Source: a virus. From it: a stretch of 64,000 nucleotides of DNA. Location: IMG/VR virus record IMGVR_UViG_3300023179_000030, positions 1-64,000 of that record, one strand, 5' to 3'. The first letter of the stretch is position 1, and the number at the start of each line of letters is the position of its first letter. Position numbers and translations under genes: made by a program. Under the pieces are notes generated by a model. That model was not told where the DNA came from, made no database searches, and worked only from the letters and a program-made list of their open reading frames with translations. Positions 15,966 to 32,761 of this stretch are shown piece by piece.

Positions 15966-16381
15966 AAGAAAGTTGTGGCGCGCTAATTTATTGTACTGCC
16001 ACTCAAAGATATTTGTTTTTACTACGTAATGGTGGTAAATTCGCCAACACCTGGGGTCTAGCAGGTGGTAAATTGGAAAACTCTGAATCAATGCTGGTTG
16101 GCCTTGTTCGAGAAATTCGTGAAGAGCTCGGTGGGGAGATTTCGGGTGCTAAAGTATTGCCAATTGAAAAATATACCAGTGACAATGGCAAGTTTGCTTA
16201 TCACACCTTTTTAATAAAAATCGAAGAAGAATTTGTGCCACAGCTCAATCATGAGCACAAGGGATTTTGTTGGGTAGGCCTTGATGATCATCCAACTCCC
16301 TTGCACCCTGGTGTTTATCGAACACTAAAGCAGAAATCTACTAGAAGTAAAATAAAAAGTCAAGAATCAATCAAAGATTAA
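15947..16381 (+). CDS. NUDIX hydrolase
   Basis: 144 residues. The full NUDIX box G-x5-E-x7-REU-x-EE-x-GU is present at about residues 40-62 (GKLENSE ... REIREELGG), so the metal site is intact. The family hydrolyses nucleoside diphosphate-linked compounds such as NDP-sugars, dNTPs, NADH or capped RNA; the substrate cannot be told. The only usable start is GTG, overlapping gp15 by 19 bp. It is the third gene of the inverted plus-strand unit. It abuts the glycan island and ends with an 11-bp convergent overlap with it, so an NDP-sugar substrate is conceivable. Confidence 0.82.
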   Translation: MDFGNIKESCGALIYCTATQRYLFLLRNGGKFANTWGLAGGKLENSESMLVGLVREIREELGGEISGAKVLPIEKYTSDNGKFAYHTFLIKIEEEFVPQLNHEHKGFCWVGLDDHPTPLHPGVYRTLKQKSTRSKIKSQESIKD

Positions 16382-16955
16382 AAACTATACTGGTTCTAGG
16401 GGTTTTGCTTTGGTTGGGAGGTACTTCATGGTACATCCATGCGGGCCATATCAATAACAATCCAGGACAGGGTTCGTAATCAACATGTGGCATGCAATAC
16501 CAATTATTTGGGTCTTTAATCATATACATATAATCAAAAAAATCCTTGAAGGGTTGATTTGGATAGAACCTAATTTTACTTGACCCTGGAGGAGTTTTTA
16601 GATAATATATACCACTTAGTGTACATTGACTATGCAGATGTTTGGGATGGTTACTGCCTTCCAAAAAGCTGTTGGCAAAAAAGTATGGCTTCCAGGGAAT
16701 CCTACTGGTGTCATAGCCTTGCTGATCTAAAAACCCCACAGCCTTTTTTTTAACAAAATCTATAAAAGGACTGAATTCAGGATCCTCTGTCAATGATCTA
16801 GTGCCATAAGTGGTTTCACCATTGTAGTAAAACTGCGTGTTTACTTGTTTGTTTGGCACATTAAAAATCTTATCCAGCAGTAGATTCATGGGGTCAATCC
16901 ACTCTGGGTGGTTATCTCGACCCACCGTGGTTGGAAACCAGTTATCTAAATGCAT
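16371..16955 (-). CDS. Putative 2OG-Fe(II) oxygenase (TIGR02466-like)
   Basis: 194 residues. The jelly-roll signature runs 'SNHPKHLHSQCTLSGIYYLK' (iron-binding His plus substrate Ser region, about 105-120), 'IWPAWMYHEVPPN' with the second His (about 177), and 'RTSIVFNL' with the Arg that would hold the 2-oxoglutarate carboxylate. This matches the small dioxygenase-like family frequent in marine T4-like phages (family name from recall). Substrates are unknown; protein or small-molecule hydroxylation is possible. It is the last gene of the glycan operon, 1 nt from the next oxygenase. Confidence 0.65.
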   Translation of the reverse strand: MHLDNWFPTTVGRDNHPEWIDPMNLLLDKIFNVPNKQVNTQFYYNGETTYGTRSLTEDPEFSPFIDFVKKKAVGFLDQQGYDTSRIPWKPYFFANSFLEGSNHPKHLHSQCTLSGIYYLKTPPGSSKIRFYPNQPFKDFFDYMYMIKDPNNWYCMPHVDYEPCPGLLLIWPAWMYHEVPPNQSKTPRTSIVFNL

Positions 16956-16956
16956 G

Positions 16957-17478
16957 TTATTTACTGAAAAATAGCTGTATACTCAAGCGAGGATGTTCCG
17001 CCAATGGGGTAACCATGGTGGTTGCATGCCAAACTGGAGGCTTAAACCAAACCATATAATTACGCATAGGATAAACCCAACGTTGCCCAACATCTGGGTC
17101 ATCACAAATAAAAAATCCACCCCAATTCCAATTCCAAGTCTCATTGATATAAATTGTGCTGCTTAGACGCTCAACCGTTTCAGATGCATCGTGATGAAAA
17201 TTGATTTGACTTCCAGGTGGCCAAATATGTAAAAAACAATTTAAATTATTATAATCTGCAAATACCGGATCCACTGTTTTATATTTTTCCAAAAAATATT
17301 CTTTATATTCTTCCAGCGGTAACACAAATACTGGGGCATATGACCCGCTATCTAGCCCTTTACCCCATCGACCCATGTTGTTTATCTCAAATACAGGTTT
17401 CCCGCGTGAGCTCTCATATTTTGCATTTATGTTGTCAAATGTTTCTTTGTCTAAAAAATCAGGAACTATATGAATCAT
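16957..17478 (-). CDS. 2OG-Fe(II) oxygenase-like protein (prolyl-hydroxylase fold)
   Basis: 173 residues. The catalytic triad is readable: 'INFHHDASETVERLSSTIYI' contains the H-x-D pair (about 115-117 region), followed by Gly-Gly-Phe, 'MVWFKPPVWHATTMV' with the distal His (about 152), and 'HPRLSIQLFF' with the cosubstrate Arg. This is the compact prolyl-4-hydroxylase-type fold. It requires Fe(II), O2 and 2-oxoglutarate. It sits between two other oxygenase-like genes. The same phage encodes three collagen-like fibres, so hydroxylation of Gly-Pro repeats is a hypothesis; a sugar or host target is equally possible. Confidence 0.7.
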   Translation of the reverse strand: MIHIVPDFLDKETFDNINAKYESSRGKPVFEINNMGRWGKGLDSGSYAPVFVLPLEEYKEYFLEKYKTVDPVFADYNNLNCFLHIWPPGSQINFHHDASETVERLSSTIYINETWNWNWGGFFICDDPDVGQRWVYPMRNYMVWFKPPVWHATTMVTPLAEHPRLSIQLFFSK

Positions 17479-17489
17479 TGTTATCTTTC

Positions 17490-18041
17490 TTAATATTGAG
17501 TGGTAAGGAAAAACAATTGAAATAGCCTACCTGATTCCAAGTCATCTCCAAAATAATCTAAACTTGTATGAAATAGATCACTGCGATACAACACTAATCT
17601 ATTATATCTATTGCCAATTACATCGAATAAGTCCCATTTGGTCATATCCTGAGATTCGTAACTTTCCAATTCACTCTGAATTCTAGCTCCAGTGCGTTTA
17701 TGTCTAAACAACCCTGTGCCGCTGGTATGTGGCGCATTTGGTGTTAGATAACAAACCCCAGCCCAAGTGTTATAGTGATCTGTGTGTATCCAACTTCGGT
17801 CTTTGGCTGTTGCAATTTCAAAACTACCGGTGAGCCCATCGCCCTCATTCCAATTTGTTACTTCGCCAGCGGCATTCCAAAGAATAGTCTGAATAGTATC
17901 ACGCATATCACTGTTTAGAAAACTCACAGTGCGTGATCCAGGGAAATTGCCCCTGACTTTAAATTCTTGCTGCATTGCAAATGCTCTAACACTGTCTGGG
18001 TTGCTATAAAAATCGTCGGTGATAATTACATTAGTTCTCAA
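17490..18041 (-). CDS. DUF6445-like putative dioxygenase
   Basis: 183 residues from a TTG at 18039-18041 with AAGGA 6 nt upstream; the frame extends 17 codons further but without a ribosome site, and a TATAAT lies just before the AAGGA. Conserved features are 'VIITDDFYSNPDSVRAFA', 'SWIHTDHYNTWAGVCYLTP' with an H-x-D pair, 'GTGLFRHK' and 'RLFQLFFLT'. This matches the phage and bacterial DUF6445 family as I recall it, related in sequence logic to 2OG oxygenases. It forms a block with the next two oxygenase genes. No substrate is known. Confidence 0.6.
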   Translation of the reverse strand: MRTNVIITDDFYSNPDSVRAFAMQQEFKVRGNFPGSRTVSFLNSDMRDTIQTILWNAAGEVTNWNEGDGLTGSFEIATAKDRSWIHTDHYNTWAGVCYLTPNAPHTSGTGLFRHKRTGARIQSELESYESQDMTKWDLFDVIGNRYNRLVLYRSDLFHTSLDYFGDDLESGRLFQLFFLTTQY

Positions 18042-18107
18042 TTTATTTCCTTTATTATACTTACTTATGTTAATGCGAGCTATTGCTTGCAAAACTTGTG
18101 GGATAAT

Positions 18108-18911
18108 TTATTGTGCTAGATTAACGAACAGATGTTTTTCTATTTCTTCCTCTAACCTTTGATAGATTGATTTTTGCCAGTAGGGTTTAGATAATTCATA
18201 GTTCATCAATACATACTCATTGAGTTCATCATATTTTGCTGGTGTTAAGGTGTTCATTATATGTTCAAATTTTTCAATTGAATTAAATTCTAAAATACCT
18301 CGAGTATCAAAATATTTACCTATATTAGTACAACCAAAATATATAGGTACGGTTTTGGTCTTAAAACAATCCAGTAACTTTTCAGTGAACATGTTATCCA
18401 TGGCTTGATTTTCGCAGGCAATGTGAAATTTAGCGTTTACAAAAAAGGGATTTTTAGATTCAACCCTGGGTGGACTCCTATGCCACAAAAAGTCAAAATC
18501 TCCAATTTTGGTTAACTTATCAACTCTACGCATTATCATAAATCTCATACGATGTTCATGAGTCAAAATTTTACTACTCATCAAATAAGTTATTTGATTA
18601 GTTTTTTTGATCTCTAAATCATCTACCCAAGCTCCAACTGGACAAAATTCTCGTGCCTGCGGATATTGTAATAATCTATCATCATATGCCAATATTAAAT
18701 CAAAATTCTCATGAGCGTTTGCCACCATACCTGCGAAGTCAATATACAATTTCGGAGGCTCGCATTGCACTAAAACATTGTAATCTGCATTGGGATCGTG
18801 CCTCACATCGTCATAGCTGACATTAATTTTAACTGGAAACTTTTTTGTGAAGTTATATTTTGTACTGCCACTGTAACCCGGCATATATCCAATTTCTGAG
18901 ATTTCAAACAT
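18108..18911 (-). CDS. GT10 family glycosyltransferase (alpha-1,3-fucosyltransferase-like)
   Basis: 267 residues. The C-terminal GDP-fucose-binding region is diagnostic: 'AKFHIACENQAMDNMFTEKL' followed by 'TKTVPIYFGCTNIGKYFDTR', which is the FxIAFEN...D...TEK...VPVYxG...N signature of GT10 (about residues 155-210). The N-terminal acceptor domain is divergent. The expected reaction is transfer of fucose, or a related GDP-6-deoxyhexose, onto a surface glycan. A GDP-mannose 4,6-dehydratase in the same operon would supply the precursor. It overlaps the upstream gene by 8 bp. Confidence 0.75.
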   Translation of the reverse strand: MFEISEIGYMPGYSGSTKYNFTKKFPVKINVSYDDVRHDPNADYNVLVQCEPPKLYIDFAGMVANAHENFDLILAYDDRLLQYPQAREFCPVGAWVDDLEIKKTNQITYLMSSKILTHEHRMRFMIMRRVDKLTKIGDFDFLWHRSPPRVESKNPFFVNAKFHIACENQAMDNMFTEKLLDCFKTKTVPIYFGCTNIGKYFDTRGILEFNSIEKFEHIMNTLTPAKYDELNEYVLMNYELSKPYWQKSIYQRLEEEIEKHLFVNLAQ

Positions 18912-19767
18912 TCTTGGAAACCCTAATAATTTTATTCATTGAATTACTTAATACTATAGCCATATTGCTGAGATTACTTTCTCGACAAATTAGCGCACCA
19001 ACACGGCTTAAACTCATCACTTCGGCCATGGCTTCTTGCCAAAATCTCTTTTGATAAAACCAATCATATTCTGCCAAGCAGTCAAAAAAACTGGAGAATG
19101 TTTCAGTTTTATATCTTAAAAAGTTGTCGTGATAAATGATTAAATCACCAAAATACGCCTGTAGTTTATATATCGATTCATGATTATCTGAAGCTACAAA
19201 AATATTGGAATATTTACCAGTTTCAAATTCATGAGCAATACAACGTTTATACTCATCCAAGCTAATATTTTGGTATTGATCACCATGCAACATATTCATT
19301 GATGTCAGTCTAACATGCACCCCCAATGTTGTATTTGTAATTTGACTTGTCACAGGCAATGAATTAAGCTTGTTGTAAACTTCTGGTTGGAATTTTAATT
19401 TAGTTATAACTTTTTGATATTTTGAAAAATTAGGGCTTAACTCTATTTTATTTTGTTTTGTATAAGTAGTGCCTTGTTTCAAAAATCCTCGATGTTCGTA
19501 GCTGGCATCCTTTTTTTGCACTAAAATATAATCTAAGATATGTGCGTAGGGATCTTCAATGCCATATTGCTGCATTCTGTTTACGTGGTCTTCACAGAAT
19601 TTCCAAGCTTGATTACTGAACTCATCATTGGTTTCTGTCACTGGGACGAAACCGCTTAGTTCCAAATAAACATTGTCAAAATCAATTTCCGACAAAGGTA
19701 ATATCCCAAATTGCAGCAATCTACTAAAGATACCGCCCCCTGGAACTATATAGATAAAATTTTTCAT
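18904..19767 (-). CDS. Putative GT11/GT23-like fucosyltransferase
   Basis: 287 residues. It begins 'FIYIVPGGGIFSRLLQFGIL', like the nucleotide-sugar transferases with a G-x-G-N/F-R loop. It contains 'LGVHVRLTS' (about 150, the HxR donor-binding motif), 'NIFVASDNHESIYKL' (SD motif, about 195) and a C-terminal 'EAMAEVMSLSRVGALI' with 'SNLSNMAIVLS', the layout of the GT11/GT23/NodZ superfamily that uses GDP-fucose. The second Arg of the classic HxRR is absent, so the subfamily is uncertain. It overlaps its upstream neighbour by ATGA and belongs to the same operon as Gmd and the GT10 enzyme. Confidence 0.55.
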   Translation of the reverse strand: MKNFIYIVPGGGIFSRLLQFGILPLSEIDFDNVYLELSGFVPVTETNDEFSNQAWKFCEDHVNRMQQYGIEDPYAHILDYILVQKKDASYEHRGFLKQGTTYTKQNKIELSPNFSKYQKVITKLKFQPEVYNKLNSLPVTSQITNTTLGVHVRLTSMNMLHGDQYQNISLDEYKRCIAHEFETGKYSNIFVASDNHESIYKLQAYFGDLIIYHDNFLRYKTETFSSFFDCLAEYDWFYQKRFWQEAMAEVMSLSRVGALICRESNLSNMAIVLSNSMNKIIRVSKNV

Positions 19768-20588
19768 ATTATAATATGTTGATTTTGCGATACTACCTTT
19801 TTAATCACATTGTGAAAATATTCTGATGCATTGTCATCAATAGGAAATTCAAAATTAAAAGCATTTTTGCCACTGTGATCATATGGGGTTCGCATAGTGG
19901 GCATATAGCAGCGGTCCATATCAAGGGTCTCTACAGGATCAAAACCCAACTTGTTTAAAATTTGATTACCCATATGCAATATCAATTCATATGATGGGTG
20001 ACTCACATCATTGAATAGCTTTTTAGTTTTATAATTCTGCTCTATAAAGTCAACGGCTTTTACATCAGTCCCTCGCTCTTTGATTCTAAGTATATTTTGA
20101 TTTCGCCTAAATCTCTCTGCATAGTTAAAGTCGATTTGCCCATGATCATAGGCCGACAAAATGTCTGATTCAGTCCACCCATCCACTAACAACTTTTTAA
20201 TAATCGAAGAATTTTTAATTAGCTCAGTATCCACCAATCTAAAATTGTCGCTGATATTTGGGGCAGATGTCACCACCATAGGCCAAAAACTAAAATTCCA
20301 AAGATAAGGAATACTGATCGCCTGGGAGCCGGGTTTCATATGAGTTTTCAATGTGTCTGTGGCGTTTTCTCCATAGGTTTCGGCCAATGGCTGATAAATG
20401 AAAAGATCAGCATTTTTCAATTTGACAAAATAATCCGAATAAGTTAAGAACGACCGTTGAGTCCTTATTAATTCGTAATTATGTATATGGTCAACAATTA
20501 TATATTGTTCAGAAAATTGACGGGAAGCATAAAGAACATCATAGATCATCCTACCCTGACATGTTGCATAAATTAAAGCTGTTTTCAT
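19764..20588 (-). CDS. WcbI-like polysaccharide biosynthesis protein
   Basis: 274 residues. WcbI proteins take part in capsule biosynthesis (putative acyl or acetyl transferase, SGNH-like fold). Visible features are the N-terminal 'ALIYATCQGRMIYDVLYASR' with the conserved CQ turn, 'LKNADLFIYQPLAETYGENA', 'SIPYLWNFSFWPMVV' and, near residue 195, 'LFNDVSHPSYELILHMGNQI', the H-P-s motif expected of the family. It lies between Gmd and the putative fucosyltransferases, suggesting modification of the same glycan. The acceptor is unknown. Confidence 0.65.
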   Translation of the reverse strand: MKTALIYATCQGRMIYDVLYASRQFSEQYIIVDHIHNYELIRTQRSFLTYSDYFVKLKNADLFIYQPLAETYGENATDTLKTHMKPGSQAISIPYLWNFSFWPMVVTSAPNISDNFRLVDTELIKNSSIIKKLLVDGWTESDILSAYDHGQIDFNYAERFRRNQNILRIKERGTDVKAVDFIEQNYKTKKLFNDVSHPSYELILHMGNQILNKLGFDPVETLDMDRCYMPTMRTPYDHSGKNAFNFEFPIDDNASEYFHNVIKKVVSQNQHIII

Positions 20589-20598
20589 TGGTTCATTG

Positions 20599-21564
20599 TT
20601 ATTTGTCTTGCCAATATTTAATCATTTCATCCAACATGCTGTGAAATGTATATTTGGGACTCCATCCCAACTGACTTCTAATTTCACTGCTGTCACCCTT
20701 TAGATATTTTAACTCTTCGGGGCGTAAAAACTTTTCATTTTGTACTACATAATTTCTATAATCAAGCCCCAAAGCGTTGAATGTGTATTCACAAAGATCG
20801 CGAACTGAATGTGATTCCCCGGTGGCAACTACCCAATCACGTGGTGTTTCGTGATTGACAATCATGTGCATAGCGCGCACATAATCATAACTATGACCCC
20901 AGTCCCTACAGCTATCTAAATTCCCCAATTCCAACTTGTCCAATAAACCTTTTTTAATATCTACAGCAGCTTTGACAACTTTGTTTGTTACAAAGTTTGT
21001 ACCGCGGCGTGGGCTTTCGTGATTAAATAATATCCCATTTGAGGCATGTAACTTATATGCATCCCTATAATGTCTTGTTAGATTAAATCCCATGACTTTA
21101 CTGCATCCGTAGGGACTCACTGGCGTCATGGGTGTTGAAAGTCGTTGTACCCCATCTGGATCTATACTATTACCAAACATTTCACTGCTGCTGGCTTGAT
21201 AAAACTTAGCTTGTGGGCAAAATTGTCGATATGCTTCAAGCATAGTCAACACTCCCAGACTATTGGTTTTAATAGTAAAGGCCGGCATATCAAAACTAAT
21301 TCGCACATGGCTCATTGCTGCAAGATTATATATCTCGTCGGGCTTTACATCATTAACGATCTTAGCAATACTCCATTCGTCAGTCAAATCCCCATAAATT
21401 CTAGTTATTTGATCATTGATATGCATCAATCTAGAACTTTGATTTTCTGCTACACTATGTCTACGAACTATACCGTAGACATCATAGCCCAAGTCTAATA
21501 GATATTCGCTAAGATAACTACCATCTTGACCGGTAATACCAGTTATTAATGCTCGCTTTTTCAT
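20599..21564 (-). CDS. gmd: GDP-mannose 4,6-dehydratase
   Basis: 321 residues, slightly short of the usual ~345-370. This short-chain dehydrogenase converts GDP-D-mannose to GDP-4-keto-6-deoxymannose, the precursor of fucose, rhamnose and perosamine. It has an NADP-binding 'ALITGITGQDGSYLSEYLLD', 'YNLAAMSHVRISFDMP', catalytic 'SSSEMFGNS' and Y-x3-K in 'SPYGCSKVMG', and the GDP-mannose-binding 'ESPRRGTNFVTNKV' with 'LDSCRDWGHSYDYV'. Every catalytic residue is present. No GDP-fucose synthase (Fcl) is in the window, so the next step is done by the host, by the adjacent DegT enzyme, or elsewhere in the phage. Confidence 0.92.
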   Translation of the reverse strand: MKKRALITGITGQDGSYLSEYLLDLGYDVYGIVRRHSVAENQSSRLMHINDQITRIYGDLTDEWSIAKIVNDVKPDEIYNLAAMSHVRISFDMPAFTIKTNSLGVLTMLEAYRQFCPQAKFYQASSSEMFGNSIDPDGVQRLSTPMTPVSPYGCSKVMGFNLTRHYRDAYKLHASNGILFNHESPRRGTNFVTNKVVKAAVDIKKGLLDKLELGNLDSCRDWGHSYDYVRAMHMIVNHETPRDWVVATGESHSVRDLCEYTFNALGLDYRNYVVQNEKFLRPEELKYLKGDSSEIRSQLGWSPKYTFHSMLDEMIKYWQDK

Positions 21565-22256
21565 TTTGACCTTTTAAATATTGTTTTCTGTGATAAATCT
21601 GAATAATGCAAATTAGAACCACAATCTTCCGTATAGTCTGCTACTTGATCCATTAAAAGTATACCACGCGCAGCATCTTCTGGTGTCATATAATAATGCC
21701 AGCCCATGATCTCATAGTCATCCTCCCACTGTGGAATAGATAAATCCCTGCCATCGTAAGTTGCTTTTTTAAGCCAACGATATGCCTCAGCATCGTCAGT
21801 GAGAATCATACCCCCTCTTCCAATGGGAATTTGTTTTTTAAGTTGAAAACTGCATACGTGCAATCCACCAGTGTACATACCACGACGCCAACGAGTAGCT
21901 GCATCCCATATTGGAAATGGCTTTAATTGATATCTTCCCGTCCATTCCAGATCTTCAAATTCCACTCGGCATCCTGCATGTACTATTTGTTGAGCTGCAC
22001 TGACATAAGTATGTTTGGGTATGGTTACTGTTCCAATGGCGTTTAGATATTTTAAACTCAAAAACATGCCGTGGCTACAACAATCCACCGCTACCCCATA
22101 CTTAGATCCTGCAAACTCTGCTACTTTTTTCTCAAAAATATCAACTATATCTCTGGCATCAGTCCAGTTATAGCCCTGTTTTTTGACTTGCTCTAGCTCT
22201 GGCCTTTGAAATTCTTTGGGTAATTGCCCGTTGGGCCAACTTGAAAATTTAGTCAT
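21561..22256 (-). CDS. DegT/DnrJ/EryC1-type aminotransferase, C-terminally short
   Basis: 231 residues against ~360-400 for the family. PLP-site features remain: 'YGVAVDCCSHGMFLSLKYL', 'TIPKHTYVSAAQQIVHAGC', 'PIWDAATRW' with the Asp that binds the PLP nitrogen, and 'CSFQLKKQIPIGRGGMI' with the Schiff-base Lys in register. The protein ends shortly after the segment 'HYYMTPEDAARGILLMDQV', so most of the small C-terminal domain is missing. It overlaps Gmd by ATGA. With Gmd and the adjacent acyltransferase it could make an N-acylated amino sugar such as GDP-perosamine, if active. It may be a natural short form or a decaying copy. Confidence 0.72.
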   Translation of the reverse strand: MTKFSSWPNGQLPKEFQRPELEQVKKQGYNWTDARDIVDIFEKKVAEFAGSKYGVAVDCCSHGMFLSLKYLNAIGTVTIPKHTYVSAAQQIVHAGCRVEFEDLEWTGRYQLKPFPIWDAATRWRRGMYTGGLHVCSFQLKKQIPIGRGGMILTDDAEAYRWLKKATYDGRDLSIPQWEDDYEIMGWHYYMTPEDAARGILLMDQVADYTEDCGSNLHYSDLSQKTIFKRSK

Positions 22257-22780
22257 TGATATTTGTATCCCATTTTTTCTGCATATTCGTAGGCTTTGTC
22301 TTGATTTCGCAGCCTAATAGGTCTAGCGGGGTTCCCTACGTAAATAGTCCAGGGTTCGGTGCTTTGTTTTAATAAGCTATTGGCCCCCAATACACTACCC
22401 TCTGCCAGTGTGACCCCAGGTAAAACCACAGCATTTGCTAATACTCCACTAAACCGTTTAAGTGTAATAGTCCCCAAAATCTGTGTATCCTTAAACTCTT
22501 CGGGTATCAGTGGGCCAATTAACCCATCACCCATAAAAGTCTCACTGCCGCAGACATATTTTGATCCCACACTTAAAAAACAAAAGTCTTCAACGCATAG
22601 ACTTGAATGTTTACCGCCAATAACTGCTACGTGCGGGCTTACATGCACATAGTCACCTATTATTAATTTAGTTGAACAATAAAACCCATAATCTATAGCT
22701 ACGTGATTACCGAGTTGGCATAAATCGGGTCTAGTTATCTCAGAATTAGCATGTACTCTGACATCTATTCCCTGTATCAT
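22253..22780 (-). CDS. Left-handed beta-helix acyltransferase
   Basis: 175 residues of hexapeptide-type repeats: 'LGNHVAIDYGFYCSTKLIIG', 'YVHVSPHVAVIGGKHSSL' with the His of the active site, 'FSGVLANAVVLPGVTLAEGS' and a C-terminal 'IYVGNPARPIRLR', the acetyl-CoA-proximal tail typical of WbbJ/PglD-like sugar O- or N-acetyltransferases. It lies between the cupin and the DegT gene with 4-bp overlaps on both sides. The probable role is acetylation of the amino sugar made by the DegT step, or of a glycan hydroxyl. Confidence 0.8.
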   Translation of the reverse strand: MIQGIDVRVHANSEITRPDLCQLGNHVAIDYGFYCSTKLIIGDYVHVSPHVAVIGGKHSSLCVEDFCFLSVGSKYVCGSETFMGDGLIGPLIPEEFKDTQILGTITLKRFSGVLANAVVLPGVTLAEGSVLGANSLLKQSTEPWTIYVGNPARPIRLRNQDKAYEYAEKMGYKYQ

Positions 22781-24238: not shown

Positions 24239-24248
24239 ATCTTTTTGA

Positions 24249-24276
24249 ATTATACACTAAACGGGTGTAAAGTAAA
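24249..24276 (-). promoter_or_regulatory. Sigma70-like promoter for downstream glycan operon
   Basis: -35 TTTACT (24271-24276), a 16-bp spacer and -10 TATAAT (24249-24254). Only 10 nt separate the -10 from the GT4 ATG, predicting a leader of about 3-4 nt. It should transcribe the 11 genes ending at 16371. Confidence 0.55.
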
Positions 24277-24307
24277 TTGATTCGGTGGTATAATTTACCA
24301 GCCTGGC

Positions 24308-24335: not shown

Positions 24336-24359
24336 AATATAGGTTGTCAATGCAACTAT

Positions 24360-24665: not shown

Positions 24666-24692
24666 AATTAAACTCCTAATAGGTTATATTTT

Positions 24693-24700
24693 TATTTATC
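24693..24700 (-). promoter_or_regulatory. Late promoter box GATAAATA
   Basis: It overlaps the stop of the papain-like gene and lies 27 nt before the ATG of the 101-residue protein, with AGGAG in the leader. Confidence 0.5.
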
Positions 24701-25550: not shown

Positions 25551-26425
25551 AGTTGTCTAAATGGTTTAGTATTAACGGTAACAGCAGGTTTCGCTGTGCT
25601 TTTGATCCAATTTAAATTGGGCTGATTAATATTGAAATTGTATTTCCAAAATGATTGCGCCTCATATTTTTGCCAAAGGTCATTGGGTAATACACTGTTT
25701 CTAGCAGAATATTCGATTCTGGGTCTCACAGTGTGCAATCCTTGAATTTTTGCTTGTGTGTCGAATTCATCATAGGTTGCTTCTACATTATTAAAATCAT
25801 GATTGAACCAGGGTTCCTCAATGAATTGGTAAATTTGCTGCATGGTTTTTAAAGGGTTTGAAACTAATGTATCATATTCCACAAAGCATATGTGACGACG
25901 CTCGTCACTGGCCAAACATTGTTTGACGCCCATCAGTGGGCCCTGCACATAGCCGGGAAAGTTGGCCAAATCCCCCATCAACATGGCGCTGCGCTCATAG
26001 ACATTGGCTAATTGTTGATGGTGATACAACGGTTTGATAGTAAATGGATTTTTAGAATTCAGTCGTTCGAAACTGTCTAATATCCAGGGTATCTCCCTGA
26101 TGCAAACAATCATCTTAAAGTTTGGAAAAAGATCCGCCAATAATGCAGTATCTGAACTCCATCCTCGATTGGTATTAAAACAGACTTCTGAGTCTTGACT
26201 GTAGAAACTGTCAAATAATCCATGTACAATGGTTCTTCGTTTTTCCACTGGTACGGCTGCTTCCATACCCACCGCAGTACTGGTATCTTTGATAATACTA
26301 TGCACATACATTTGCAATGGGTCACTTATACCAGCTGTAAATCTGGGATTTTGTTTGAGTATACTGGACAACAAAGTTGACCCAGACCTAGGCAAGCCCG
26401 ATATAAAATTATACTTGCGTATCAT
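25547..26425 (-). CDS. Sulfotransferase 1
   Basis: 292 residues from the ATG at 26423-26425 (a GTG lies one codon earlier; AAGGA serves either). The 5'-phosphosulfate loop 'FISGLPRSGSTLLSSILKQN' (about 7-26) and a 3'-phosphate-binding region 'MIVCIREIPWILDSFERL' identify a PAPS-dependent sulfotransferase. 'HICFVEYDTLVSNPLKTMQQ' is the typical downstream helix. It would transfer sulfate from PAPS, presumably host-made, to a sugar or protein hydroxyl. It overlaps the carbamoyltransferase gene by 17 bp. A paralogue lies at 29739-30533. Confidence 0.82.
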   Translation of the reverse strand: MIRKYNFISGLPRSGSTLLSSILKQNPRFTAGISDPLQMYVHSIIKDTSTAVGMEAAVPVEKRRTIVHGLFDSFYSQDSEVCFNTNRGWSSDTALLADLFPNFKMIVCIREIPWILDSFERLNSKNPFTIKPLYHHQQLANVYERSAMLMGDLANFPGYVQGPLMGVKQCLASDERRHICFVEYDTLVSNPLKTMQQIYQFIEEPWFNHDFNNVEATYDEFDTQAKIQGLHTVRPRIEYSARNSVLPNDLWQKYEAQSFWKYNFNINQPNLNWIKSTAKPAVTVNTKPFRQL

Positions 26426-28163
26426 CACCAGTGTCCTTGACTTTGGTAACTAATTTACCCAAATCTGCCATATATAAATATTCTATTTCACTGTTGAACA
26501 ACGTAATGATTGCGTCAAATACAGATTCAACCAATGGTTGACCAGCCAAGTTCAAACTGGTATTGAACAATACTGGAACCCCTGTTTGTCTATAAAATGC
26601 TTCTATTAATTGGTAAAAATTCTTGTTGTCAGATTCTGACACGGTTTGAATTCTACAGGTACCATCAACATGAGTAACCGCTGGGATTAGTTCTAGTTTG
26701 TCTGACTTTACATCTACCGCATACATCATAAAAGGACTATCAGTCATTCCGGAAAGGTCAAACCACTCAGATGCATGCTGCTCTAGCACTGACCCAGCAA
26801 ACGGCCTAAACCATTCTCGATTTTTCACCCTGTTAACAATGTCTTTTCCATCAACCCGTCGTGGATCAAATAGTATACTGCGATTTCCCAAAGCACGTGG
26901 ACCTGCTTCCGACGATCCCTGAAACAATGCCACTATATTACCCTTATCAATTAATTCAGCTATCGTATCAACGGTGGCATCTTCTACATTGATCTTACCG
27001 TTTTGTTTAACAATATCCAATTGTGCGTAATCAGGTGGTGCACCCAAATACACATGGCGTAATGGCTTAATAGCTATTTCTTTGGAATACTGATGCCAAG
27101 CATATTTTGCAAGTCCAATTGCTGTTCCACCATCGTGGCTAATGGGATCTACATAAAATTTTATGTTTGGAAAATTTTGCAGATATTTATAATTGGCCAC
27201 ACAATTCAAACCATATCCACCAGAGATTATAACATTGGTTTCACCTGTGATGTCGATAGCTTTTTGTATCAAATCAATAACCATCTTTTCAGTTTCAATT
27301 TGAACATGATAAGCTAGATTTTTATCTACATCACGTGCCATGGAAAAATCGTTATGCCAGACTACAGGGTCACTGAATCTCTTCAAATATGGAAAACGAT
27401 TCTCATCAATAAATGCCCCGGCTGGATAGTTGGGAATGAATACATTTTTATTACCTTTGTTCTGAACAAATAGTCTAGGGATATTTTCATCTTGACTGCC
27501 ATAGGGGGCCAACCCCATGGTTTTTCCTGCTTCAATAAAACCAAATCCCAGATATTGTGAAACTGCTTCATAGGCTTTGGTAATGGTAACACTGTTATCA
27601 AATTCCTGTATACCATTATCATAATATGGGGAACTTTGATTTCCATCCGAATAACGCTTGTGTAGTGCATTAAATTCATGTGGGTAACTGCAATGATAGA
27701 TAGATTCGGTTTCAAAACCACCAACAGTGATGTTTTGTTGCTCAATCACTTCCTGAGTATATGATCCGGCTCCATCTACAACAACAGCGGCTGCGGTTTC
27801 AAATCCAGAATTATAAAATGCACTGGCAGCATGCCCAAGATGATGTAAATGCCCCATTCTAGTTACTTTAACATTGGGATTAAATTTCCTAACCAAAGCA
27901 GTATAGGCATCCTCGCCAGTCCAGGGCAATTGGGCTAACTGAGACATTGTACCACCAATAACTAATTCGTCAACTTGATGATTGAGCAGTATTTGCAACA
28001 TGGCTTTAAAAGGATTGCCATCGTATTTTAATCTACTAAGACGTTCCTCTTCGGCATAAAACACTAGCTCACCATTGACAACCAATGCCGCAGACCCATT
28101 GTGTCCGGGGTTAATTGCCATGATGGAATATGTTAGTCTATTTGTTTGTATGGGTTCTTGCAT
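26409..28163 (-). CDS. Carbamoyltransferase (NodU/CmcH/TobZ family)
   Basis: 584 residues, full length for the family. The N-terminal Kae1-like domain begins 'YSIMAINPGHNGSAALVVNG' and has 'MGHLHHLGHAASAFYNSGF' with the metal-binding H-x3-H set and 'AAAVVVDGAGSYTQE'. The C-terminal domain has 'FQGSSEAGPRALGNRSIL' and 'VKNREWFRPFAGSVL', the carbamoyl-adenylate-forming site. The family O-carbamoylates sugars using carbamoyl phosphate and ATP, as on Nod factors and antibiotics. It starts by TAATG overlap with the GT9 gene and lies between that gene and a sulfotransferase. T4-like cyanophages also carry this family (recall). Confidence 0.88.
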   Translation of the reverse strand: MQEPIQTNRLTYSIMAINPGHNGSAALVVNGELVFYAEEERLSRLKYDGNPFKAMLQILLNHQVDELVIGGTMSQLAQLPWTGEDAYTALVRKFNPNVKVTRMGHLHHLGHAASAFYNSGFETAAAVVVDGAGSYTQEVIEQQNITVGGFETESIYHCSYPHEFNALHKRYSDGNQSSPYYDNGIQEFDNSVTITKAYEAVSQYLGFGFIEAGKTMGLAPYGSQDENIPRLFVQNKGNKNVFIPNYPAGAFIDENRFPYLKRFSDPVVWHNDFSMARDVDKNLAYHVQIETEKMVIDLIQKAIDITGETNVIISGGYGLNCVANYKYLQNFPNIKFYVDPISHDGGTAIGLAKYAWHQYSKEIAIKPLRHVYLGAPPDYAQLDIVKQNGKINVEDATVDTIAELIDKGNIVALFQGSSEAGPRALGNRSILFDPRRVDGKDIVNRVKNREWFRPFAGSVLEQHASEWFDLSGMTDSPFMMYAVDVKSDKLELIPAVTHVDGTCRIQTVSESDNKNFYQLIEAFYRQTGVPVLFNTSLNLAGQPLVESVFDAIITLFNSEIEYLYMADLGKLVTKVKDTGDDTQV

Positions 28164-29092
28164 TATTTTACTTTCTTTTCTATGTCGGATACTATGTTTG
28201 AATAGACATCATTTAGTTCTTTATCACTGAATTTCATCGTAGCTTCATTTAGTCTATTACTTAGCATGGTGTCTAGGCCAGCTATTCTAATAGGGCTATA
28301 TTTTCTCACACCGGGTTTTTCTATGATGTTGAAATAGCCCGGGTACGTGGTATTCACTGGAAATGTCGATCCAATTATAACAGTACCAGGTATATTCAGT
28401 GCTCGCGCCATATGTTGACCCACACTGTCAACACCTATAAAGTAATCAGCTGACGATATAAGTGCTGCCCATTGCCTTAGGTCGCAGGTATAATTGGCTG
28501 CGAATGTATCAGCTTTCATTTGAAATGCTGGTTCACCAAAAAATATCATGTTATATCTCTGTGCCAATCTTTTTACTAGAAATAAGTAGGCATTGGGATC
28601 CAGGCTTCTGGATTCTTCGTCCAGTATCAAATCGCGTTCAATTTTTGCCCCCCGCCCAAATGGCTGTATTACCACTGTTTTATTTCTTTTTTGTATCGCT
28701 TTTAGGTCACTGATCGTGTTTTTTGCCACCAACATTTCTTGTTTATTAAACACCATGATGGGCAAACCTAGGTCACTGTGATCTGTGGTGTTATTAATTT
28801 CTCTATCAAAAGCTTGCGCCAAAGAAATTTCTTGTCTAAAGTAAGCAGGATTCCTATAGGGTTCAGGTGTGACGATTTTGTCGGCCTTTAAACAAACATT
28901 GTCGAAAACACCTTTGGTATCTGTACTGTAAACTCTATCTTGTAATTCAGGTATTCCCCAATATAGATAGTCGAATCCACCAACTACCACTGCCCAATTT
29001 GCAGTGGGGTTTAATTTATTAAACTTCAATAATGCTGGAATAGCAGATAATACTCTACCTGCACCGCCATCTATGTAAAAAACAGTATTCAT
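28163..29092 (-). CDS. GT9-like glycosyltransferase (heptosyltransferase family)
   Basis: 309 residues. It opens with 'VFYIDGGAGRVLSAIPALLK', the GxGDxxxxxP-like acceptor loop of ADP-heptose LPS heptosyltransferases. The C-terminal 'LRQWAALISSADYFIGVDSV' followed by 'GQHMARALNIPGTVIIGSTF' is the characteristic GT9 donor-site motif (Asp-Ser before Gly-His). 'KTVVIQPFGRGAKIERDL' marks the start of the second Rossmann domain. It would add a heptose or related sugar to a core or surface glycan. It overlaps both neighbours by 1-4 bp within the operon. Confidence 0.72.
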   Translation of the reverse strand: MNTVFYIDGGAGRVLSAIPALLKFNKLNPTANWAVVVGGFDYLYWGIPELQDRVYSTDTKGVFDNVCLKADKIVTPEPYRNPAYFRQEISLAQAFDREINNTTDHSDLGLPIMVFNKQEMLVAKNTISDLKAIQKRNKTVVIQPFGRGAKIERDLILDEESRSLDPNAYLFLVKRLAQRYNMIFFGEPAFQMKADTFAANYTCDLRQWAALISSADYFIGVDSVGQHMARALNIPGTVIIGSTFPVNTTYPGYFNIIEKPGVRKYSPIRIAGLDTMLSNRLNEATMKFSDKELNDVYSNIVSDIEKKVK

Positions 29093-29742
29093 TTATCGAT
29101 TCTTTCAAATAATATATCAGTCTGAAGTAAAGCACCCCGTTGATCGTAGTTCAAGTCAAAAACATCATTGACCTTATAACTATAGTTATGCATGGCGGAC
29201 ACAGTATCATAAAAACTTGGGGCACCCTGATTATATGGCATAATTGAGCATTCCAAAAGTATAAATTTTGGCTTTTTGTAGTTTAAAAATTTCTGTGCAC
29301 CACTGAGAATCAGCAATTCAGAACCCTGGGTGTCTATTTTTACCAATCCCTGTGATGCCCAGTTTCCATAAAAATTATGTGTTTCACTGAGCTTGTCCAA
29401 AGTTGTCATCTCTAAGGGCATGACCACTGTTGTTTCATCGGTATAGTGATTGGTGAGTTCTCGAAATATAGAGCTGCCAGTGGTGATTTTATCCTCACTC
29501 AGAGTATAATAATCTACTCTGGCTCGCTCTTGATCACCCAACAATGCATAAATTGCTGTGGCATTGAGCCAGGGTTTTTGCCTTTGATCCGCCTCAAATT
29601 GCCAAACAATGGCATTGGGCCAGATCGATTTTATTGTTTCTGTAAAATCACCTCTATATGCACCAATATCTAGTACATAATTGATATGCTGCCCACGCGC
29701 TTTTAAGTTGTCAAACCGATGTTTGAAAGGTGTAATAATCAT
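29089..29742 (-). CDS. FkbM-family SAM-dependent methyltransferase
   Basis: 217 residues from the ATG at 29740-29742, which makes an ATGA overlap with the upstream gene; a TTG three codons earlier is less likely. Motif I is 'INYVLDIGAYRGDFTETIKS'. 'IVWQFEADQRQKPWL' carries the acidic ribose-binding residue. 'QGLVKIDTQGSELLILSGAQ' is the hallmark K-I-D-x-x-G-x-E of FkbM methyltransferases (about 137). The family O-methylates hydroxyls of sugars and polyketides. Its place between the second sulfotransferase and GT9 implies methyl capping of the glycan. Confidence 0.82.
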   Translation of the reverse strand: MIITPFKHRFDNLKARGQHINYVLDIGAYRGDFTETIKSIWPNAIVWQFEADQRQKPWLNATAIYALLGDQERARVDYYTLSEDKITTGSSIFRELTNHYTDETTVVMPLEMTTLDKLSETHNFYGNWASQGLVKIDTQGSELLILSGAQKFLNYKKPKFILLECSIMPYNQGAPSFYDTVSAMHNYSYKVNDVFDLNYDQRGALLQTDILFERIDK

Positions 29743-30533
29743 TGACGCCAAAATTCCAATTTCATTTCTGTATATAATCTAGTTAATTCGTGACCTATTA
29801 TTTGTTCGGGTCCGGGACTTGTTTTTTTCAAACTGGATCTAACATGATGTAGGCCCTGCATTCCACCGTGATAATCGTCATTTTCGTCCATGGGCTGTAG
29901 AGAATCTATGTTTACAGAACAATGGTCCACTCCTATAAAATCACAAATTTTATTCATGGTCTCAGGCCCAGAATTAACTATATCAGTATATTCAAGAAAT
30001 AGCATATCACAATTACCTGCGGTATATCCCATTCGCAAACTGGTATAGGGGTGCATTATATACTTTTCCAATAACACTCGGCAACGGTTTTTATTATTAA
30101 TCGGTAATTTTAAATCTATTAGATCTTGATCAACAAAAGTTATTTTATCACTGTTTTTTTGTATCAACAAAATATAAGAGGATAATATATCTGGTATACT
30201 ACGAACTGTACAAATAATTTTTGGCCTACCGGACAAGACTTTAGACATCAAATCCGCATATCTTGGCCACAATCTGTTTTTGTCCACAACGATTGGCGCC
30301 GATATATGTTTATATGCTCCATCAATTATACCTGCCACTATATTAGTAAATTGTTCAGGTGGCGTGTTCAGCTGACCTTGCGACACAATTTGCCAATTGT
30401 TAGCGAATATCGCTATTAAGTCTGATACAGGGCTTGTTGTAGTGGCGTGAATTTCAGGATGTTGATTTAATAAACTGGCCAAGACCTGAGACCCAGATCT
30501 AGGAATACCCGACAACATTACAAAATGTTTCAT
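29739..30533 (-). CDS. Sulfotransferase 2
   Basis: 264 residues. The PAPS-binding loop is 'FVMLSGIPRSGSQVLASLLN' (about 4-23); 'KIICTVRSIPDILSSYILLI' holds the 3'-phosphate-binding Arg and Ser (about 105-115); 'DMLFLEYTDIVNSGPETMNK' follows. It is paralogous to the sulfotransferase at 25547-26425, sharing the loop, the R-S/E-I-P-x-I-L motif and the late 'QGLH-VR-S' pattern. This suggests duplication with divergence in acceptor specificity. It overlaps its upstream and downstream neighbours by 4 bp each. Confidence 0.8.
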   Translation of the reverse strand: MKHFVMLSGIPRSGSQVLASLLNQHPEIHATTTSPVSDLIAIFANNWQIVSQGQLNTPPEQFTNIVAGIIDGAYKHISAPIVVDKNRLWPRYADLMSKVLSGRPKIICTVRSIPDILSSYILLIQKNSDKITFVDQDLIDLKLPINNKNRCRVLLEKYIMHPYTSLRMGYTAGNCDMLFLEYTDIVNSGPETMNKICDFIGVDHCSVNIDSLQPMDENDDYHGGMQGLHHVRSSLKKTSPGPEQIIGHELTRLYTEMKLEFWRQ

Positions 30534-31210
30534 AATTGACGTTTAATTAGGTTAGATACACGATTCCAGCGCATAAAATTTTCAGATGTACCCTGAAATT
30601 TATAAGGTCCTATATGATTGCAAATCACTTTGGGATCTAGGTATGCAGGGAATCCGCCAGCACGTAATTTGTTAAATGCATGTATGTCCTCGCTGACTAA
30701 ACTTTGATTTTCAATCACTACATCAAATATCATTCTACGCTCACGCATATCCTTGGGGTCCATATAAACTTTGCTAACATCCCATAAGTGCGTAAATGCT
30801 GCTTTGGACATCTTAACAAAGCCTGTACCTAAACCTTCTACTTCTATTAATCCTGAATGTGGGTCAGGTGGTTTGCGCTCTATTTGTCTAACAACGTATT
30901 CCTCTTTATCGCCTTTTTTACGATATGTACCACCAACCACATCTTCTGGCCGATCCAGTATTTTATAAAACCATTCAGGTTTCCATTCAATATCAGCATC
31001 TATCCAAAATAAATCATCAACTTGAAGGTCCATGGCTATTTGTACGGTGTCATTTCTGGCACGCTGTAACAATGCATCAAAACTAACCCACATTGGGATT
31101 ATCTCTACCCCGTGCTCTGCGCTCATTTTAATAGTATTGCAGAGACTGTTGGTATACCACACGTCCAGTTGACCTGCATATGAGGGAGTTCCAATCAAAA
31201 CTTTTCGCAT
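30530..31210 (-). CDS. GT-A fold glycosyltransferase
   Basis: 226 residues from the ATG at 31208-31210, preceded by AGGA at 8 nt; an in-frame start 17 codons upstream would overlap the previous gene. The protein begins 'KVLIGTPSYAGQLDVWYTNS', has 'LLQRARNDTVQIAMDLQVDD' and the metal-binding DxD in 'LFWIDADIEWKPEWF' (about 80). 'GLIEVEGLGTGFVKMSKAAF' and 'SEDIHAFNKLRAGGFPAYLD' complete the fold seen in phage and giant-virus GT-A enzymes of the GT2/GT62-like type. Donor unknown. It is the only clear DxD enzyme in the island. Confidence 0.72.
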   Translation of the reverse strand: MRKVLIGTPSYAGQLDVWYTNSLCNTIKMSAEHGVEIIPMWVSFDALLQRARNDTVQIAMDLQVDDLFWIDADIEWKPEWFYKILDRPEDVVGGTYRKKGDKEEYVVRQIERKPPDPHSGLIEVEGLGTGFVKMSKAAFTHLWDVSKVYMDPKDMRERRMIFDVVIENQSLVSEDIHAFNKLRAGGFPAYLDPKVICNHIGPYKFQGTSENFMRWNRVSNLIKRQL

Positions 31211-31220
31211 TAGATCGTTC

Positions 31221-31865
31221 CTAACATTTAATATTTTCAATGATTTTTCGATATTCTTCAACTACAGTGGCTGAATCAGGTCCTAGATAATTATTCATAA
31301 AAATGGAATAGGGGATTGAATCACGCCATCTAAAAATGATTTCCTCGGTTGCTGGAATATACTTTACCGCATTCCAAACTAAGGCACCCAACATTTCTAA
31401 TTTGGGAATCACCAACATTTCAGTATCACGCTGGTCGAAAATCCACCTATGATGTATATATCCAATCCAAGTTGCACTTTCTGGTCTACTCAATTCTGCT
31501 CTTATACTGGGCATGGTTATTATTCCAGCTCGAGCTATTTTTGGCAGCATATCCAACACCGTAAAGGGATTGTAAATATCCTCTAACGTATGTGTACAAA
31601 TTGCATAATCATACTGACCTTGACTTTCAGTGAACTTTATTATCTTATCCCAAGATTCTTGCTTGCAAATATCTAATTTCCAGCTAGAATTGGTATCTTT
31701 GGCATTGACGTCCACCACAAGATCCACTACAGGTGCTGTCCAGCCATTTACCGCGCCACCTATGTCAATAACTCTGTACTTGGGGTTTTCAGCACGAATT
31801 GCACGTAGATCTGATAAGATCTGGTGCCTACTGTCAGCTGTTTTACCATAATTTATGGTTAGCAT
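31221..31865 (-). CDS. Putative class I SAM-dependent methyltransferase
   Basis: 214 residues. A degenerate motif I 'KYRVIDIGGAVNGWTAPVVD' (about 29-48) is followed by 'LVVDVNAKD' (acidic residue after beta 2), 'WKLDICKQESWDKI' and 'QYDYAICTHTLEDIYNPFTV' (motif IV/post-motif, about 85-104), the layout of type-11/FkbM-like methyltransferases. The C-terminal part is divergent, with several Trp residues. It overlaps the GT4 gene by 7 bp. The target is presumably the same glycan; a non-catalytic relative cannot be excluded. Confidence 0.6.
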   Translation of the reverse strand: MLTINYGKTADSRHQILSDLRAIRAENPKYRVIDIGGAVNGWTAPVVDLVVDVNAKDTNSSWKLDICKQESWDKIIKFTESQGQYDYAICTHTLEDIYNPFTVLDMLPKIARAGIITMPSIRAELSRPESATWIGYIHHRWIFDQRDTEMLVIPKLEMLGALVWNAVKYIPATEEIIFRWRDSIPYSIFMNNYLGPDSATVVEEYRKIIENIKC

Positions 31866-32761
31866 ATTTTATTGAAAAATTCCCGCCATTGAACCGCACG
31901 ATTCACCCAAGAATATCGTTGATTAAACCAAACACTTTGCTCTATTAGATTATACTGGTTTTGTTGACAAAGATCAATAACCGAGTTCAATTTTTTAGCA
32001 TAAGATTCAACCAATTCACGTCTATCAAAGGTAAAAGGAACATAATCTGCATATTCTCCGCAGGTTTCGTGAAGTGCGCCAAGATCTGTAGTGACTATTC
32101 GGCACCCTGCTGCTCCTGCTTCTATAGCTGCTAGGCAACTAGTTTCTTCAAAGGTGCTGGGATATGCCAGTATATGTGAAGATTGTAATGCTGATCTAAT
32201 TGCTCGATTCATTGCATAGCCGCGGTAAATCACACCTGAAGTTCTTCGGCATCGTTCAAATAATGCATCATAGGTTCTCCCCACCGCATCACTGTATCCT
32301 TTTCCGTAGATTATATTCGAAGAATACACGACCAGTTCAATGTCGTCACGATTAAGCAAATCAAAGACGTCCAATAGAACATCTAGCCCCCTAAATGGCA
32401 TAGAGGTATAGATTAGCCTTATCTTTTCCTTGGGTTTGTCTCGTAATTCTATGGGTTCGATGGCGTTGTAAATAACGTGGTTGTTGGATTCCGAAATATC
32501 AAATTGTTGTTTAAATTTGTCTAATTGCCAGTTACTTACATAGACATAGTGATCTATAGATTTGATAAAATCAGGGTCATTTAGACCCTGAACTACCCCT
32601 TGATTGGGCATTACATGTTGCCAAACGACGTTTTTTCGCCCTGTATCAATGATATTTTTATCGCAGCGACTTAGTACAAGATTGACAGTTTGTTGCCAAT
32701 CTTGGCCTAAGTATCGTAACAGATTATTATAGAGTAATTCCGATCCACCTAAGGGATTCAT
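31859..32761 (-). CDS. GT4-like glycosyltransferase with short N-terminus
   Basis: 300 residues. The donor domain is clear: 'EKIRLIYTSMPFRGLDVLLD', 'SGVIYRGYAMNRAIRSALQS', 'AYPSTFEETSCLAAIEAGAA' (E-x7-E) and 'GCRIVTTDLGALHETCGEYA'. The ATG places the protein directly at 'NPLGGSELLYNNLL', lacking the usual first beta strand. In-frame codons before the ATG read ILQIT, a plausible strand, but no standard start codon exists before an in-frame TAA. It follows the giant fibre gene by 28 bp with no terminator, so it is probably co-transcribed late. Confidence 0.7.
   Translation of the reverse strand: MNPLGGSELLYNNLLRYLGQDWQQTVNLVLSRCDKNIIDTGRKNVVWQHVMPNQGVVQGLNDPDFIKSIDHYVYVSNWQLDKFKQQFDISESNNHVIYNAIEPIELRDKPKEKIRLIYTSMPFRGLDVLLDVFDLLNRDDIELVVYSSNIIYGKGYSDAVGRTYDALFERCRRTSGVIYRGYAMNRAIRSALQSSHILAYPSTFEETSCLAAIEAGAAGCRIVTTDLGALHETCGEYADYVPFTFDRRELVESYAKKLNSVIDLCQQNQYNLIEQSVWFNQRYSWVNRAVQWREFFNKIC

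Follow-up and report, generated by a model that had tools for sequence, protein, structure and literature searches.

A glycan-modification island of two separable cassettes, one linked to a repeat tail fibre, in a large T4-like phage

What would a phage do with a dense island of sugar-modifying genes beside its tail fibres, and which molecule would carry the product? This question is raised by positions 16371-32761 of IMG/VR virus record IMGVR_UViG_3300023179_000030 (G000); the window, meaning the whole stretch analyzed here, is the first 64 kb of this 126,241 base record. An initial annotation, made from the sequence alone, described eighteen adjacent genes whose combination predicted one heavily modified saccharide, and left its carrier, host surface or virion, open. 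In this study, we found that the island consists of two independent glycan cassettes placed in tandem at an insertion site between the tail-fibre genes and a Nudix hydrolase gene. Cassette A is linked to one type of repetitive fibre, and this linkage now favours, rather than proves, the virion fibre as carrier, with confidence that is evenly balanced.

Two cassettes at one insertion site

The island comprises 21 open reading frames (ORFs), every one on the - strand, of which 19 are of glycan type. Overlaps occur at 14 of the 20 ORF junctions and span 1-41 bp, the 41 bp case hinging on a TTG start; the dense layout and pervasive overlaps of the initial annotation were thereby retained, and its gene count and overlap range of 1-20 bp were revised. 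Families were assigned by Pfam, NCBIfam and phrog profile searches together with fold searches of AlphaFold models. Nearly all of the families originally named were backed by Pfam, NCBIfam and fold searches, bearing out a phage-encoded island for decorating glycans by sulfation, carbamoylation, methylation and fucosyl-type transfer. The second methyltransferase, the glycosyltransferase (GT) family 9 enzyme and the GT2-like enzyme are weak by Pfam alone, and structure secures GT9. The structure-based search that the annotation had proposed for each product was run for g30 (WaaC/WaaF/TibC fold) and g19 (fucosyltransferase fold). Nucleotide comparison with INPHARED matched just 1% of the island.

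To place the island among its relatives, ~190 viral loci were compared, gathered through sheath, GT9, g19 and gp15 alignments, with ORFs assigned by iterative hidden Markov model search. Cassette A follows the order GT4b, (MT23), GT2-like, sulfotransferase, (FkbM), GT9, NodU, sulfotransferase, g26, and occurs without B in G015, G017, G018, G019, G021 and G022, some of them missing single genes, and in rearranged form in G024. Cassette B follows the order GT4a, cupin, hexapeptide, mini-DegT, Gmd, (WcbI), fucosyltransferase-fold, GT10, DUF6445, 2-oxoglutarate (2OG) oxygenase, 2OG oxygenase, and the loci that carry B and not A are G007, G008 (where no g19 or 2OG orthologue could be recognised), L143-L151, L164, L165 and L225, several of them ending at contig ends. 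In relatives, each cassette sits singly between tail fibres and convergent Nudix-gp15 genes, and the far side is nearly always a convergent Nudix-gp15-gp14 block where the border is covered. Both cassettes together were found only in this phage among the loci compared. Among gp15-Nudix loci with room to judge, that side is free of cassettes in 41 of 46 and occupied by one in 5 of 46. Because the same gene orders recur across many independent viral contigs, they are not due to chance; and because A and B occur apart in relatives, a single saccharide built by the whole island does not follow from the layout and is unsupported.

The genes of cassette A (24360-32761), and the peptidase gene g27 lying within its span, are as follows.

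31859..32761, - strand: g35, GT4 glycosyltransferase (GT4b; PF13692 1.9e-10), starting 28 bp past the fibre stop and syntenic in G015, G017-G019, G021, G022 and G024
31221..31865, - strand: g34, S-adenosylmethionine methyltransferase (PF13489-like, MT23; PF13489 2.4e-5, just under cut-off), with orthologues in G018 and G022
30530..31261, - strand: g33, GT2-like glycosyltransferase (phrog_1574 1.8e-19; PF00535 0.0026), syntenic in relatives
29739..30533, - strand: g32, sulfotransferase (PF13469 2.5e-11; PF00685 6.8e-10)
29089..29751, - strand: g31, FkbM-family methyltransferase (PF05050 7e-13; TIGR01444 above cut-off)
28163..29092, - strand: g30, GT9/heptosyltransferase-fold enzyme (phrog_8954; PF01075 at cut-off), the hallmark of the cassette
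26409..28163, - strand: g29, NodU/TobZ-type O-carbamoyltransferase (PF16861 4.7e-60, C-terminus; PF02543 3.6e-24)
25547..26428, - strand: g28, sulfotransferase (PF13469 6.2e-14)
24699..25550, - strand: g27, papain-like C1 peptidase (PF00112 6.5e-15)
24360..24665, - strand: g26, small conserved protein closing the cassette (48-57% identity in relatives), kept at this end in G015, G017-G019, G021 and G022, weakly in G024

Both sulfotransferases exceed the cut-offs of PF13469 and PF00685 and carry an N-terminal PRSGS loop (SGLPRSGSTLL, SGIPRSGSQVL). The carbamoyltransferase g29, whose PDB matches include TobZ, contains the N and C Carbam_trans domains with GPRALGNRS and HHxxH intact, and in 59 of 78 loci NodU is the gene that directly follows GT9. 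The AlphaFold (AF2) model of g30 (pLDDT 95.7) matched WaaC, WaaF, the Veillonella GT9 protein 3tov and TibC in Foldseek at E ~1e-10 to 1e-8; for TibC, TMq reached 0.64 and the best E was 1.7e-9, with WaaC, WaaF and 3tov equal or better. At least 552 viral relatives of g30 were found. The annotation had also proposed comparison with phage and host loci, and there the cassettes recur in many viral contigs, the GT9 marker appearing in only 7 contigs among 84,980 cellular species genomes, 6 of the 7 with NodU near. A separate observation concerns the GT9-NodU loci L152-L157, which are filed as metagenome-assembled genomes of Woesearchaeota, Gammaproteobacteria, Neomarinimicrobiota and Euryarchaeota; their large neighbouring ORFs, and in L154/L157 a tail-fibre homologue, point to misbinned phage contigs. 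No orthologue of the peptidase g27 was found in the compared loci, making it peculiar to this phage among them.

The genes of cassette B (16371-24238) are as follows.

23180..24238, - strand: g25, GT4 glycosyltransferase (GT4a; PF00534 2.1e-22), opening the cassette also in G007, G008, L145, L146, L148, L150 and L151
22777..23187, - strand: g24, WbuC-family cupin (TIGR04366 2.9e-12, above cut-off)
22253..22780, - strand: g23, hexapeptide sugar acyltransferase (PF00132 3.2e-7; NeuD/WcaF similarity under their cut-offs)
21561..22256, - strand: g22, compact DegT/perosamine-synthase-like aminotransferase of 231 aa (mini-DegT; PF01041 6.4e-17)
20599..21564, - strand: g21, GDP-mannose 4,6-dehydratase Gmd (PF16363 2.3e-109; PDB GMDs down to 3.2e-86)
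19764..20588, - strand: g20, WcbI (PF18588 3.4e-26)
18904..19767, - strand: g19, fucosyltransferase-superfamily enzyme (NodZ/FUT8/POFUT fold; AF2 model pLDDT 81)
18108..18911, - strand: g18, GT10 fucosyltransferase-type enzyme (PF00852 3e-7, above cut-off)
17490..18092, - strand: g17, DUF6445, 2OG-oxygenase-like (phrog_1644; PF20043 3.3e-15; HTD...H...R motif)
16957..17478, - strand: g16, 2OG-Fe(II) oxygenase (PF13640 4.1e-7; HHD...H...R motif)
16371..16955, - strand: g15, 2OG-Fe(II) oxygenase (TIGR02466 above cut-off; PF13759 9.3e-20)

For g19, profile searches gave no family match and sequence searches nothing in the PDB; its identity came from the fold search, in which all 50 Foldseek matches listed were fucosyltransferases (NodZ, FUT8, POFUT1/2, plant FUT1). 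The top PDB match of g22 is perosamine synthetase 3bn1, aligned across two separate stretches, and the protein is ~140 residues shorter than the normal enzyme, so its reaction is treated as putative. Quick scans for WcbI gave no phage or viral relatives; synteny later revealed copies in G008 and L151, and the gene is missing from the other covered cassette B loci.

The cassettes and the phages that carry them have different histories. Cassette A genes are mostly 50-81% identical between the window and cassette A phages (GT4b down to 43-44% in some), and the backbone (Nudix, gp15, gp14, sheath) is only 38-48% identical to theirs; with most cassette B phages, the same backbone shares ~58-78%. 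Because the cassette genes are more alike than the backbones, cassette A was acquired across phage lineages as a unit. Judged by sequence identity, cassette B is likewise mobile: in L143 and L225 its genes are 47-84% identical to those of the window, and the backbones 41-49%. Additionally, in L126-L127 (G008 18164-22628) fibre and cassette B are separated by a further, third set of genes, comprising a GT2-like gene, methyltransferases and a GT25. The GT25 family includes collagen galactosyltransferases and lipopolysaccharide (LPS) enzymes.

The repeat fibre and the sulfate donor

Directly upstream of cassette A lies a tail-fibre gene whose product combines a collagen-like part, a long series of 17-residue repeats and a Peptidase_S74 chaperone; a second fibre gene carries the same type of repeat.

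32790..40214, - strand: g36, tail fibre of 2474 aa (PF01391 2e-65; PF13884 1.6e-8)
33285..37796, - strand: ~66 copies of the 17-residue repeat in g36, candidate acceptor region (consensus A-L-Y-x-N-T-T-G-x-N-N-x-A-x-G)
46328..50008, - strand: g40, second fibre, with a collagen part and ~30 copies of g36-type 17-residue repeats

The linkage was examined in fetched loci with >=4 cassette A genes and a readable upstream fibre; all seven of these, like the window, have the repeat fibre. A repeat fibre stands directly upstream of A in G015, G017, G019, G021, G022, G024 and the window, and as a fragment detected by BLAST in G018, with ~40 to 108 copies of the repeat. The fibre stop and the first cassette gene lie 10-28 bp apart in G015, G017, G019, G021, G024 and the window. 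The repeat fibre was found in 0 of 68 loci that lack GT9 and have a large unassigned ORF, although these large ORFs need not all be fibres. Across 20 records, the repeat was present in 4/4 with cassette A and 0/16 without the full cassette. The neighbours of cassette B vary, with collagen-type fibres in some.

Two more specific proposals for the collagen part were rejected. Collagen as the specific acceptor, in the manner of BclA-like GPT triplets, is unsupported: Y-position Thr is equally common in the cassette-free phages L235 and L237, G024 has cassette A and no collagen match, and in three cassette B records nothing matched collagen strongly (L145 being truncated on its upstream side). The idea that the 2OG enzymes hydroxylate Pro or Lys residues of the collagen is equally unsupported, with almost no Y-position Pro or Lys in g36.

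The sulfotransferases of cassette A are tied to a likely source of 3'-phosphoadenosine 5'-phosphosulfate (PAPS) by an adenosine 5'-phosphosulfate (APS)-kinase-like gene that accompanies the cassette in several relatives. In this phage, the gene lies outside the window (G000 98108-98962); its product matches APS kinase above the Pfam cut-off and shows a weak nucleotidyltransferase (CTP_transf_like) C-terminus; orthologues stand beside or inside cassette A in G019 (73% identity), G017 (67%), G022, G024, L046, L056, L059 and L083. It probably supplies PAPS to the sulfotransferases, APS being its presumed substrate. The gene is not exclusive to A, as G007 and G041, which lack that cassette, also show an APS-kinase match.

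Candidate carriers of the glycan

The proposal we favour, at about an even chance, is that the cassettes put sulfated, carbamoylated sugars on the phage's own repetitive tail fibres in the cytosol. Cassette B would make and transfer a GDP-linked 6-deoxy-amino sugar: Gmd would yield GDP-4-keto-6-deoxymannose, the mini-DegT would aminate it and the hexapeptide enzyme acylate it, giving a GDP-perosamine-like N-acyl sugar. Gmd together with perosamine synthase forms a known pathway to GDP-perosamine-type sugars. The GT4, GT10 and fucosyltransferase-fold enzymes would transfer the amino sugar or fucose. Cassette A would build a short glycan with its GT9/heptosyltransferase-fold enzyme and two further transferases; O-carbamoylation, two PAPS-dependent sulfations and two methylations would then decorate this glycan, and the site of action of the cassette would be the N-T-T turns within the 17-residue repeats of g36 and g40. 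The island enzymes would be soluble and made late alongside the fibres, and the densely charged fibre would be assembled onto the virion, where it may help the phage evade recognition by the host or by competitors, stabilise the fibre, or mimic a receptor. A broader formulation, which we hold somewhat more tentatively, is that the repeat fibre and the sulfating, carbamoylating and methylating enzymes move together, with the second cassette adding 6-deoxy-amino sugars, to form a virion glycan coat. With the same reserve, this mobile combination of fibre and glycosylation, some units of which carry their own sulfate-donor supply, may be a phage counterpart of bacterial adhesin hyperglycosylation.

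Three lines of evidence favour cytosolic glycosylation of late virion proteins. Excepting the protease g27, with its single C-terminal hydrophobic segment (KD19 2.36 at residue 265), no island protein has a strongly hydrophobic segment. Furthermore, neither the PF02397 initiating phosphoglycosyltransferase (9/14 controls positive) nor GtrA (7/14 controls positive) was found in 10 related records, including this one, which are fragmentary. Lastly, a late-promoter-like site lies within the island.

24693..24699, - strand: ATAAATA, late-promoter-like, 34 bp upstream of g26

Across the 126 kb contig, such T4-type late-promoter-like sites occur 8-90 bp before gene starts 11 times against 1.1 expected, a 10-fold excess; further examples in the window are at 1217, 11108 and 12760. 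By analogy with the action of TibC on TibA (PMC4358343), the evidence favours the repeat fibre as the leading acceptor candidate.

Several observations weigh against glycosylation of the fibres. The GT9 fold does not distinguish protein from LPS heptosyltransferases, and a g30 profile built from 5 sequences retrieved no PDB chain at E 0.1, TibC included. Fibres with similar 17-residue repeats, at 31-43% identity, are also carried by phages including Pelagibacter HTVC111P (31 kb) and SPO1, so a repeat fibre does not require cassette A, and the GT9-NodU pair without the rest of A adjoins other fibre types in many phages. Collagen Thr content is equal in phages without a cassette. The cassette A loci are not phylogenetically independent, and the linkage between fibre and cassette could reflect shared transfer rather than enzyme and substrate. 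Nascent lipid A-core may also be the target, compatibly with these data, and comparable clusters have been read as host O-chain modification (PMC7029224).

The most substantial alternative, less probable than fibre glycosylation yet far from negligible, is that the cassettes modify the envelope glycan of the infected host (LPS core, O-antigen or capsule), blocking superinfection by other phages or progeny re-adsorption; soluble GT9-type enzymes would work on lipid A-core at the membrane's inner face, and export by the host would complete the process. By E-value, the GT9 fold is nearest to the LPS heptosyltransferases WaaC and WaaF, and the GT9-NodU pair of cyanophages has neighbours whose annotations are heptose kinase/adenylyltransferase, phosphoheptose isomerase and nucleotide-sugar epimerase. 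Surface polysaccharides typically involve WcbI, WbuC, Gmd and genes of perosamine type, which also counts for the envelope. Envelope modification is the published reading for pelagimyophages (PMC7029224), cyanophage clusters have been termed LPS genes (PMC3037559), and the fibre linkage equally fits a host-range region. However, PF02397 and GtrA were missing from this and the related records (flippases, polymerases, ligases and WecA-type enzymes were not searched for), the island enzymes are not of membrane type, they are apparently co-transcribed with late fibre genes, and cassette A tracks one fibre type.

The fibre linkage also bears on a distinctly improbable possibility, that the enzymes have their target elsewhere in the virion (capsid, sheath or baseplate) or in a small molecule, the fibre position being a tolerant insertion site. 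The preponderance of empty gp15-Nudix loci is what such a site predicts, and cassette B has varied neighbours, but the constant pairing of the full cassette A with the repeat fibre would be left unexplained. Hypermodification of phage DNA by the carbamoyltransferase, transferases and oxygenases is very improbable. A metagenomic, probably phage, carbamoyltransferase of the NodU domain family carbamoylates 5-hydroxymethylcytosine (5hmC; PMC8670742), and 2OG oxygenases are present in the island. In that study, however, only modified contigs combined carbamoyltransferase with thymidylate synthase, the synthases there being mostly Asp177, and carbamoyltransferase copies flanked by group 1 glycosyltransferases come from unmodified contigs (PMC8670742); here NodU is flanked by transferases, and the sole thymidylate synthase found on the contig fragment (99633-100532) is canonical (PFNIA, Asn177 by motif). 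GPRALGNRS is intact in g29, and neither the sulfotransferases nor the fibre linkage would be explained. A TET/JBP search gave no match, its control being silent too. The initial annotation had itself raised a host locus or misassembly; nothing beyond the family names points that way, and the repeated occurrence of these cassettes at one and the same phage site across many independent contigs, with the scarcity of GT9 in cellular genomes, makes such an origin vanishingly improbable.

The island belongs to the known glycan islands of T4-like aquatic phages. Its closest counterparts are in cyanophages P-SSM2, S-SSM7 and S-CAM1, where, as in the window, a GT9-like gene stands directly before a Nol-like carbamoyltransferase downstream of tail fibres; in S-SSM7 and S-CAM1 the pair is near gp13-15, as here, and P-SSM2 and S-SSM7 also share 2OG oxygenases and DUF6445. 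Identities between the window and the cyanophage pair are 35-39% for GT9, a gene annotated merely as hypothetical there, and 45-48% for NodU. The cyanophages differ in their extra genes annotated for heptose-nucleotide synthesis, and neither the GT4b-GT2-sulfotransferase core nor cassette B was found in these three genomes. LPS clusters of such phages have been described as possibly functional or 'stuffer DNA' (PMC3037559). The pelagimyophage host recognition cluster (PMC7029224) is similarly a glycosyltransferase-rich, hypervariable tail-fibre region of T4-like aquatic phages; in contrast to the window, with its two resolved fixed-order cassettes, its commonest family is GT8, and the terms 'sulfotransferase' and 'carbamoyl' are absent from the text of PMC7029224.

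Among more distant systems, TibC heptosylates autotransporter adhesins such as TibA (PMC4358343). The bacterial autotransporter heptosyltransferases (BAHT) TibC and AAH resemble g30 in their GT-B fold and in genetic linkage to a repetitive surface protein, the presumed substrate here, for the full cassette A only. They differ in that no sequence-level match was found and the phage GT9 is shorter; the iron finger, dodecamer and catalytic Asp110 are TibC/AAH traits, and the likeness of the phage enzyme rests on fold. Gtr serotype conversion differs by its GtrA and membrane-type enzymes, and lipid-carrier O-antigen or capsule pathways by their PF02397 transferase. The 5hmC carbamoyltransferase (PMC8670742) shares the Carbam_trans domain family and a probable phage origin, whereas here NodU has glycosyltransferase neighbours and the thymidylate synthase of the contig is canonical. 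Sulfated capsule loci of marine bacteria, for which sulfotransferases are reportedly mentioned together with APS kinase (PMC11641403, PMC11766843), are bacterial, and the phage records searched lack an initiating transferase.

Compared with known islands, the new elements are the resolution into two cassettes, a likely PAPS source to go with sulfation, and the coupling of one cassette to one fibre type. Fixed-order cassettes, one of them tied to a repeat fibre and an APS-kinase-like gene, make the question of purpose concretely testable. If fibre glycosylation holds true, many virions in surface waters would bear anionic glycan coats, affecting adsorption, competition and phage persistence.

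The surrounding phage genome

The island is located in the tail-fibre region of a T4-like myovirus. Its neighbours include a gp23-type (T4-type major) head protein, portal, long tail sheath, gp13, gp15 and S74/collagen fibres. The head protein is closest to those of large T4-like phages, e.g. Vibrio 2.275.O, GAP32 and PA5oct (65-68%), and the contig remainder encodes DNA polymerase B, thymidylate synthase, dihydrofolate reductase and a gp25 baseplate protein. The record is probably a fragment of a larger genome, one relative measuring 338 kb. The far border of the insertion site is fixed by a convergent pair (14169..16381, + strand) that recurs in nearly all gp15 loci.

14169-15965, + strand: gp15-like tail sheath stabiliser (PF16724 9.5e-26), convergent to the island
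15947-16381, + strand: Nudix hydrolase (PF00293 3.3e-14), convergent to the island

Two homing-endonuclease-like ORFs (phrog_3339; 53435-54940 and 61143-62909) lie near the capsid and portal genes. Beyond the window (G000 64001-126241), the contig encodes GTP cyclohydrolase I, 6-pyruvoyl tetrahydropterin synthase and a 4Fe-4S domain protein, as well as an intein splicing domain. The first three could together support the making of 7-deazaguanine or of pterins, and through it a further type of DNA modification. This part of the contig also contains a 4335-residue ORF without assigned function (G000 81731-94738, + strand).

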